A DNA stretch of 64,000 nucleotides, from positions 62,001 through 126,000 of the forward strand of contig CALDZK010000004.1 of the NCBI GenBank assembly GCA_937944145.1, in the 5' to 3' direction. The notes beneath the pieces were generated by a model. The model was not told the DNA's origin. It made no database searches and saw nothing but the letters and a program-made list of their open reading frames with translations. Below, in pieces: positions 25,657 through 50,669 of this stretch (its first letter is position 1; each line of letters starts with the position of its first letter). This DNA comes from an uncultured Candidatus Altimarinota bacterium. GTDB taxonomy: Bacteria; Patescibacteriota; Gracilibacteria; BD1-5; UBA6164. A program made the translations under genes and the position numbers.

Positions 25657-25782
25657 CCGTAAGTGTATTAATATCTTTCCTATGATAGGTAAAAATTTCA
25701 AAAAGAAAAATCTCAAAGAAAAACTTAGTTTGCATAAAATTTGGGAGAATATATAATAGGAAAATATTAACTTCTAGACGTC

Positions 25783-26469
25783 GTGAAACTCGTTTGAACT
25801 ATTTTCTTTTTTGTAGCACTCATTTTTTTTGCGCCTATAACTCATGGCGAAGACTACAAAAAAACCATAATCCTAGAGGTACGATCAATTGCAAACTCTG
25901 AGGAAAATATAAACAAGGCAAAGCTACTCTTGAGGTACGCTGGAGAATATCAGGATAATATCAAACAAATCCAAGAAAGGTATGAAATAGCTAAATCTCC
26001 ACTAGTGGATGATAGTCTCAGAGAAATAGACCAGATGAAGCAAGCGCTCAAAAAAATACAGACGAAACAAGTCGAAAAGTCAGATGCCGAGTGAGTACTT
26101 TCAAGTGTCATAAAAGAACTCAAAAATATCAGTACAGGTATCAATCCATATCTCAAGTCTCAACAAAAAAAATATGAAGATGAGCTCGATACTATAAAGT
26201 GAAACTACGTTCGTATAGGAAACCTTATATCCAATGCTCTCTACAATTTTATAGAGAGTTTTTCACTCAAACTCTCAGAAATCGATACTCTTACCATAAA
26301 ACAAAAACAGCTTGTTGAGAGTCTTGTAAGGCTCAATAAATCTCGAGAAAGTATAAACGCGTTCTCACGACTCAGTTTCCGAACAAAGGGAGATATGAAA
26401 GATTTTTATACCTCTATCATACAATCTATCAAAGATGAGTTCCAGACTATTCGTTGACTCTTACGTTAA
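25783..26469 (+). CDS. Exported helical hypothetical protein (228 aa)
   Basis: Starts at GTG 25783 with a signal peptide (MKLVGTIFFFVALIFFAPITHG). The rest is almost entirely helical, rich in Lys, Glu, Gln, Ser and Leu, and probably coiled coil. Four TGA codons. It is divergent from dinG and converges on rluB, sharing the palindrome TTAA in which both stop codons lie. No family recognised; an envelope-associated helical protein is the most that can be said. Confidence 0.62.
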
Positions 26470-36468: not shown

Positions 36469-36472
36469 TTTT

Positions 36473-36724
36473 CTAAGATAAAAGGTTTTTTGCTTGAGAG
36501 TTAATACTCATTTTTTCTTCAAGGAGAGAACATATTTCTGATGTTTTTCACATATCTTTTAGAGATTCACAAAACTCTGCTACTTGTGGTATTTTTTCTA
36601 CAACTTCAGCTGTTTCTATTACTCCTGATTCTATTTTTTTCAAAAGGTCTCAAAATCATTTTGGCATTTCTACTCCTTGTATTTGTTCATGTAATTGAGG
36701 AGTGTTTGGTGTATTTTTTAGCAT
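36473..36724 (-). CDS. Small helical hypothetical protein (83 aa)
   Basis: ATG 36724 to TAG 36473, with three TGA codons; two of them, PKGFGDLLKK, are only one codon apart. The product is helical and acidic with no known motif. It starts 3 bases after the upstream stop and 4 bases before the downstream start, so it is a fully embedded operon member. The standard code hides it. Confidence 0.6.
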
Positions 36725-36727
36725 TTT

Positions 36728-37039
36728 TTAGAGATTATGAAGTAAAAATGAAAAACTATTCATTTCTTGTTTTCTCTCTTCTGCTTCTTTTTTCTGCATT
36801 CCTGCTATAGTGGTAAAATTTTGTTTTTGTATATCCTGTATTTCTTCCATCTCTATCTCTTTTACAAAACTTGTAAGACTTTTATAGAGATTATTTATCT
36901 CTTTTTCTGAGAGTATATCTAGACACTGGAGATAGAGTTCTTTTTGTTCCTCAGGTATCTCTAAGGATTGTATCATCGTCTCCACAAGCTTGGCTTTATT
37001 TGAAAGCTTCTTTTGTTTTTCAAGAAAAGTAAACAACAT
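36728..37039 (-). CDS. Small helical hypothetical protein (103 aa), first gene of a long operon
   Basis: Start chosen at ATG 37039 (MLFTFLEKQKKLSNK); an in-frame ATG at 37096 would add an unlikely Tyr/Ile-rich stretch. Entirely helical, Glu/Lys/Gln-rich. No TGA. It is the first of ten same-strand genes running to rluB. No family recognised. Confidence 0.58.
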   Translation of the reverse strand: MLFTFLEKQKKLSNKAKLVETMIQSLEIPEEQKELYLQCLDILSEKEINNLYKSLTSFVKEIEMEEIQDIQKQNFTTIAGMQKKEAEERKQEMNSFSFLLHNL

Positions 37040-37339
37040 AGAGTTTTTCTTAAGATTATTCTTTACAATCGTATCATAAATATAAATATAAAACAAATAT
37101 ATTAAATATAGTAGTAGTAGTAGGGATCTATGTAAAAAACTTCTAAAGGCTTAGTATAGATATTTATATTTTTTATGGTTCTCAAAAGATGTAAAAATAC
37201 TAGATTTTTTCAGCTATTTTAAGAGCTATATATTTTTTACACATTCTTTTTATTATATTTTTAAAAAAGCATTGACTTGCTTTTGTCTTGAAAAACATAT
37301 AGTAAAAAATGTAAGTATTTTTTTTAGAGTAAATAACAT
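37040..37339. other. 300-base divergent intergenic region
   Basis: Very AT-rich. Contains five tandem TAG units at 37109-37123 and a candidate promoter for ctpA at 37272-37303. The promoter of the minus-strand operon must also be here, but I cannot place it. No gene seen. Confidence 0.45.
37272..37303 (+). promoter_or_regulatory. Candidate promoter of ctpA
   Basis: A -35-like TTGACT (37272-37277) and a -10-like CATATA (37296-37301, spacing 18) or TATAGT (37298-37303, spacing 20). The start of ctpA lies 37-40 bases downstream. Spacing is not ideal. Confidence 0.4.
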
Positions 37340-49000: not shown

Positions 49001-49303
49001 ATGGAAAAAGAGCTAGATATATTTGATGAAGTATTACAAAAGACACAGGAATATTTTCCTAATGAAACGGAAGAAAGCTTGAGAATATTTTCTCAAGAGA
49101 TAGTAGACGTATTAGGAAGTCGTACTGTAAACAACATGAAAAAAGGAAGAACGATGTATAATGATCCTAATAATGGTTTTAGAATAAGAAAAAAGAGCAT
49201 GAAAATTGGTTTAGACGTCATAATGGAGGCAAGTATCCAAAATCATGAACCAAAGAAGCGTATAACTTCAGAGATTTTTTGGCCGAAGAGTACAGCGATT
49301 TAA
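49001..49303 (+). CDS. Hypothetical protein, 5' part of an apparent frameshift gene (100 aa)
   Basis: ATG 49001 (MEKELDIFDEVLQKTQ). The first 64 residues are helical and look normal. From about residue 65 the reading in this frame is less convincing and ends at TAA 49301, while the -1 frame from the same point is open and protein-like (next entry). The switch coincides with the heptamer A-AAA-AAG at 49188-49195. Together both parts give a protein of about 168 residues. Function unknown. Confidence 0.6.
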   Translation: MEKELDIFDEVLQKTQEYFPNETEESLRIFSQEIVDVLGSRTVNNMKKGRTMYNDPNNGFRIRKKSMKIGLDVIMEASIQNHEPKKRITSEIFWPKSTAI

Positions 49304-49509
49304 TTTTTCATAAATTACTTTCTAGAAAAGCTTTAATAACACTTGACCCAGAAATAGAAACACCATTAGATAACTTTTTAAGACGTATACGAGACGGTAG
49401 GATAGAAGGGTATCAGAGTAAATGAAAAAAATTAATACTTCTTTTGGAAGATATTACTCCTAGCGTACGACATAGAAGAGAACAGCTTTTTAAAAATGAG
49501 AATGAATAA
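49183..49509 (+). CDS. 3' part of the frameshift gene (-1 frame)
   Basis: Open from TAG 49180 to TAA 49507, with two TGA codons. It has no ATG early on, so it depends on a -1 shift at the A-run or on sequence error. The translation starts after the slip as EHENWFRRHNGGKYPKSG and continues with NFRDFLAEEYSDLIFHKLL, which reads as a folded helical domain. Its stop overlaps the next start as ATGAATAA, the same junction as the next pair of genes, so it is likely translated in the cell. Confidence 0.5.
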
Positions 49510-50059
49510 ACTAGAAACAATTTGGGATTGCGATAAACATGGATGACAGAGTATTGTGCAAAAATTCCAAGATAGGGTATATAAAATTTATCCACAAGAT
49601 AAGGAAGTGACGAGAGAGATACTCTCGAGATATATAGAGTACCAAAATAATCTTCCTGATTTTCGTATTCCTACAAATCATGCTGATACAAAGTTGTGAG
49701 GCCTCTCTACCATTGCTCTTTCTTTTACAAAGATATCTAAAGATATAGCTGATATATCGATTATATATCCTCATAATATACACCGTGATACCCAATCTTG
49801 AGTTATTTCAGAGATCTGATATGTAGAAGGAGAGAGTCTCGCACAATGACATCCTTTTGGGGTTCAGCTGATAGAGGAGATACGAGATTTTCTTCAGTTC
49901 CATGAAGATAAAAAAATTTCTCTTTTGCATAAGTTTATATATGCAACGAATTTCAAGATCGTTGGAGAAGAGAATGGAACCATATATATGGTGTGAACAG
50001 ATTGCTCTTCGCATATACCAAGAATGGTAGATGAATTATTAAATATAAAAGATGAATAA
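49502..50059 (+). CDS. Hypothetical protein, possibly kinase-fold (185 aa)
   Basis: ATG 49502 to TAA 50057. Seven or so TGA codons. The second half runs ISEIGYVEGESLAQGH, then a helix ending in KKISLLHKFIYATNFKI, then NGTIYMVGTDCSS. This order resembles the C-lobe of small kinase-like proteins (YrbL/aminoglycoside phosphotransferase type), where a helix, an N-x-x-I strand and a T-D pair occur, but no ATP-binding loop was seen. Treat as a weak inference. It overlaps both neighbours by ATGAATAA. Confidence 0.6.
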
Positions 50060-50669
50060 ATTAAGCCAATGAAGTTCACTACCAGGACCTCATTATTGAT
50101 GTATCCTTTGAGTAGGGAACGATAGCTTTGTTTCATATCATGGAGATAAAATAATTAAACATTATGCTTCTCATATTTCTCTACGTACTTTAAAAAAGTA
50201 TCATTCTATTCATAGAGAATTATCTCAAAAAGAAAATTTAGTATTTCCCTTTAATCAGGAAGTACAGCTCGGGGACGAAAAAGTTTTTATTAAAAATATT
50301 CATTTCTCTGTTCTAGATTTAGGAGATGAGATAGTATCAGAAATGTACTTAGCCGAAGACAAGAGAAAGTTGTGTGTTTCGGTTATTGATTATTGTAGTG
50401 ATAATAGGCTAAAGGATTTTGGTTATGCTCCGTATAATAATCCTATTATTATGCATCTTTTTGATGTCTTACCTGAACCATATAATTTTAAACGTGAATC
50501 TAATTTTTCTTGAATGACTGTTGACTCAATTACCAAGAGTAATATTCGATATAAACTTGTATGAGAGAATTTGTATCTTACAGCTACAGATTTAGGAGGC
50601 AGCATCAATTATTATGTAGAAGCATACAAAAAGAAAGTTACCGATTTATGAATATCAAAGGAACCTTAA
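50052..50669 (+). CDS. Hypothetical protein, possibly kinase-fold (205 aa)
   Basis: ATG 50052 to TAA 50667. The N-terminus LGVGNDSFVSYHGDKIIKHY looks like a Gly-rich loop followed by a strand with Lys, and the C-terminus (RYKLVGENLYLTATDLGGS) mirrors the TD-containing end of the previous protein. The two could be distant relatives or two halves of a kinase-like pair. Six TGA codons. It is the last gene of the cluster; no terminator with a T run was found right after it. Confidence 0.58.

Follow-up and report, generated by a model that had tools for sequence, protein, structure and literature searches.

Does the gene that begins at position 49001 change frame as it is expressed, or has it lost its frame by mutation? 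The question arises at a slippery heptamer, A-AAA-AAG, that lies within the gene at a point where the -1 frame is open as well. We addressed it in a window of 64,000 nucleotides, the whole stretch of DNA analysed, which spans positions 62001-126000 of contig 4; the genome measures 1.18 Mb, is 98% complete and is assembled in 18 contigs. The earlier note had reported that the gene meets A-AAA-AAG in its zero frame, and the motif does lie there, in frame. It had also described a -1 frame that continues and joins the next gene. This description holds in that the frame stays open until the TAA at 49507-49509 and meets the next start in the overlap ATGAATAA, but it holds in code 25 only. The last upstream stop in the -1 frame is a TAG at 49180-49182, and a change of frame is possible only between 49183 and 49303. 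The features of the locus are collected in Table 1.

Table 1. Features of the locus at 49001, in positions of the window.
Feature	Position	Strand	Remarks
Zero-frame ORF	49001..49303	+	100 aa; TAA stop at 49301-49303; no family match
Heptamer A-AAA-AAG in the zero frame	49189..49195	+	A6 run at 49189-49194
-1 frame	49183..49509	+	open only with TGA as Gly; no ATG or GTG start
T6 run	49275..49280	+	within the frame-change interval; second candidate indel site
TTG, first possible -1 frame start	49279..49281	+	would give 76 aa
ATGAATAA overlap	49502..49509	+	overlap between the end of the -1 frame and the ATG at 49502, where the second ORF starts
Second ORF	49502..50059	+	185 aa; one distant relative in the family
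Third ORF	50052..50669	+	205 aa; weak relatives in the class

NCBI code 25, in which TGA is read as glycine, is the code of Gracilibacteria and SR1, and the genes of the window read through only under this assignment. The fusA gene just upstream of the 49001 ORF also requires it: in code 25 its 745-748 codons form a single ORF, as against two pieces in table 11. The -1 frame holds two TGA codons, at 49246 and 49423, and is open because the genome reads them as glycine. A tRNA search of this genome (loci L082-L110) gave 29 matches; no tRNA-Gly(UCA), tRNA-Val or tRNA-Asn was found among the typed ones, and a UGA-reading tRNA was not seen. The missing tRNAs probably escaped the search or fall in an assembly gap. 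Elsewhere in the window, two gaps of ~0.8 kb (25657-26465 and 36469-37339) are without a long ORF on either strand.

Downstream of fusA, a terminator-like hairpin is followed by the ATG at 49001, the first of a row of three ORFs that sits between fusA and rny. In several members of the family (L043, L044, L045 and L046), fusA is followed directly by rny, indicating that the row is accessory. The contig of the only genome from the same genus breaks off 139 bases past fusA, and this remnant bears no resemblance to the 49001 gene. Read by eye with TGA as glycine, the remnant (L049:1-140, G001) carries an ORF starting MSGLRAICYGDWAEDSTVFC directly 3' of fusA. This ORF faintly resembles the one at 49502, and the insert after fusA may thus differ between species. 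The second and third ORFs of the row are orphan-like and gave no family match. By eye, a degenerate pattern like that of protein kinases is seen in their relatives, with a Gly-rich start, a Lys, 'EGESL' and 'RDIDIHNIKF...VDLG' (L080).

If the -1 frame were open by accident, the gene would simply end at 49303. Such accidents are frequent in this DNA, as only TAA and TAG serve as stops: the -1 frame of real genes is open in 31% of 32-codon windows. In keeping with an accident, the -1 product had no relatives that we could find. However, the frame extends ~70 codons past 49303 with gene-like codon usage, and it ends in the same ATGAATAA junction that links the ORF at 49502-50059 to the ORF at 50052-50669. 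Its codon score after 49300 is 0.055 per codon, and those of the next two ORFs are 0.113 and 0.059. Among open same-strand shadow frames of real genes, only 0.6-1.9% attain this score; on the other hand, 11% of windows from real genes score at or below it, and for one antisense shadow frame the proportion of open windows attaining it is 13%. The gene-like score and the shared junction indicate that the end of the -1 frame is likely a genuine gene end, and we consider an accidentally open frame very improbable.

Where the frame might change was assessed from codon usage. The zero frame is gene-like over 49001-49186, with a codon score of 0.298 per codon, and its tail (49196-49300) has an acceptable score of 0.103. 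Among ~40 switch points, the codon-likelihood posterior for the heptamer region was 22% under a codon model and 49% under a model of the codon plus the previous base, and simulated deletions indicated that the switch point is beyond the resolution of this test. The earlier impression of an odd zero-frame sequence past the heptamer was therefore not borne out. Log-odds codon scores had seemed to disfavour the heptamer; these were dropped, the likelihood comparison with simulated deletions having had no deciding power.

Codon usage that remains acceptable up to the zero-frame stop, together with a codon analysis that cannot place a switch, would also suit two small overlapping genes, one encoding the 100-aa product that ends at 49303 and one a 76-aa product from the TTG at 49279, with the remaining two ORFs downstream. 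The row already contains short gene overlaps, and orphan frame transitions commonly arise in this way (PMC3711429). By contrast, the -1 frame offers neither ATG nor GTG, and a start at the TTG would produce an overlap of 25 bases, in contrast to the ATGAATAA junctions elsewhere in the row; most neighbouring long ORFs in the contig overlap less. We rank this arrangement, which the earlier note had not put forward as a reading, second and regard it as possible, if unlikely.

Recoding, whether by programmed -1 frameshifting at A-AAA-AAG or by RNA polymerase slippage on the A6 run, would give a 169-aa fusion beside the 100-aa product, and some ribosomes would reach the overlapping next gene. The heptamer is correct, in frame and directly past the last -1 stop, and in one codon model it is the best switch point. 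By chance, an in-frame A-AAA-AAG is expected in ~1.7% of 40-codon stretches, and any XXXYYYZ heptamer in ~29%. A-AAA-AAG belongs to the most efficient class of heptamers in E. coli (PMC4066793). However, intact genes in this contig are not depleted of it: 170 long ORFs contain 32 in-frame copies, compared to 29.9 expected from codon use. Two of these lie in uvrA, which is full-length with a full-length family match, and others are found in mfd, a DinG-like helicase, leucyl aminopeptidase and the third ORF of the row. Furthermore, the A6 run is itself a natural indel site, and the coincidence accordingly does not favour recoding over mutation.

The lysine tRNAs also bear on slippage. A-AAA-AAG is slippery in E. 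coli because AAG is read there by the sole lysine tRNA (UUU), with weak pairing; Thermus has two tRNAs for lysine and is expected to hold AAG tightly (PMC5009743). Both tRNA-Lys(CUU) and tRNA-Lys(UUU) are present in this genome, and with a separate tRNA-Lys(CUU) for AAG, slippage at A-AAA-AAG should be weaker.

A downstream stem-loop, which the earlier note had named as a check, was not seen: the 50-100 bases past the heptamer (pseudoknot-free folds of 49196-49245 to 49201-49300) formed no structure more stable than shuffled sequence, with z values of +0.73 to -0.65. Nor did the segment 6-17 nt upstream, AATGATCCTAATAATGGTTTTAGAATAAGA, contain an SD-like stimulator from the motif list of PMC4066793 (GAGG, GGAG, AGGA, GGNGG or AGGKG). 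SD-like stimulators occur in only some cases of programmed -1 frameshifting. SD-like motifs are rare 5' of the long ORFs of contig C4 when the first ATG is taken as the start, with AGGA at 9/170 and AGGAG at 2/170. The dnaX gene of this genome is a single frame of 490 codons without an XXXYYYZ site.

The programmed -1 frameshift of E. coli dnaX uses the identical zero-frame heptamer. Unlike that system, the 49001 gene has no SD-like stimulator or stable hairpin that we could find, its genome has tRNA-Lys(CUU), and a shift would lengthen the product, not shorten it. The -1 frameshift cassettes of IS orfA/orfB likewise have an A-rich heptamer between two overlapping frames; however, neither frame here matches a transposase or mobile-element family, and this identity was rejected. 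No relative was found in which the frame transition could be seen to recur. The in-frame heptamer remains in favour of programmed frameshifting, which the earlier note had offered alongside a homopolymer error, and the structure, SD-like motif, heptamer depletion, tRNA set and dnaX results all count against it. We place recoding third and judge it improbable. Most of that small probability falls to a genuine programmed -1 frameshift or A6 slippage, in a candidate-phyla bacterium that reads UGA as glycine, that would dispense with recognisable stimulators and, despite tRNA-Lys(CUU), would set the share of ribosomes passing to the overlapping gene downstream.

Neither frame had a relative in 353 genomes of the class or in 380 sampled from the phylum, and family searches returned no match for either. 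With the heptamer fusion as the sole query, 60 near genomes, phages, and GTDB and viral contigs likewise gave no relative; the scans of the two contig sets used short peptide patterns whose reach is limited to close relatives. Marginal matches to the fusions within the class (E 0.003-0.09) were set aside as scattered fragments with inconsistent alignments, and no partner for the 49001 gene was present next to relatives of the second and third ORFs. An identity as a CYTH protein (class IV adenylate cyclase, cyaB), which would place the switch at the T run, was rejected after comparison with a lineage profile and shuffles. The NCBIfam CYTH model gave E values of 0.028 for the zero frame and 0.0062 for a fusion at the T run, at 14-16 bits against a cut-off of 58, and against a profile built from the relatives' CYTH proteins the candidate did not outscore its own shuffled copies. 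CYTH-like proteins are frequent in the lineage (G000:C10:110993-111343 and relatives L157-L170), and a distinct conserved CYTH-like group of ~220 aa has the motifs AKWSRxRxEY and DKNAGYGYxxEFE. Single-sequence structure predictions were of low confidence and were therefore not used.

In these respects the 49001 gene resembles the orphan frame transitions, or singletons, of Antonov et al. 2013 (PMC3711429), which likewise have no homologue and occur in one genome only; we know of no feature that distinguishes it from them. From a survey of 1106 prokaryotic genomes, errors or indels were expected to account for two thirds of orphan frame transitions and gene overlaps for the remaining third (PMC3711429), and our negative tests for recoding fit this expectation.

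Both frames are open, the -1 frame has gene-like codon usage downstream, and its ATGAATAA junction is shared with the row. We infer that the two frames were once one gene, separated by an indel. The explanation that we rank first, and toward which we lean, is that an orphan accessory gene of ~170 codons was broken by a one-base indel in 49183-49303. After 49300 the -1 frame has the codon usage of the next two ORFs and the same junction, and it has no ATG or GTG start of its own; the region is accessory, no search found a relative, and the interval contains two hexameric runs. The acceptable codon usage of the zero-frame tail, on the other hand, fits a normal gene end as well. Under the indel explanation, the reading frame would have been lost through insertion or deletion of one base somewhere in the interval, with natural hot spots in the A6 (49189-49194) and T6 (49275-49280) runs. 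The cell would then make a truncated product of 100 aa, and the remainder of the gene, in the -1 frame to 49509, would be translated rarely or never.

Such an indel could be real, as an early pseudogene or a strain variant, or it could be an assembly error. A rough scan of 266 kb, which has little sensitivity for short genes and passed over the 49001 gene itself, revealed no other gene with a convincing frameshift. This makes a general assembly problem unlikely, and a real mutation likelier than an assembly error.

The 49001 gene matters mainly as a caution. A-AAA-AAG is common in intact genes of this A-rich genome and reading UGA as glycine lengthens chance frames, such that the pairing of a heptamer with an open -1 frame argues only weakly for recoding. 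Were recoding true here, the lineage in which it occurs would be one whose genetic code has changed and that has two tRNAs for lysine.
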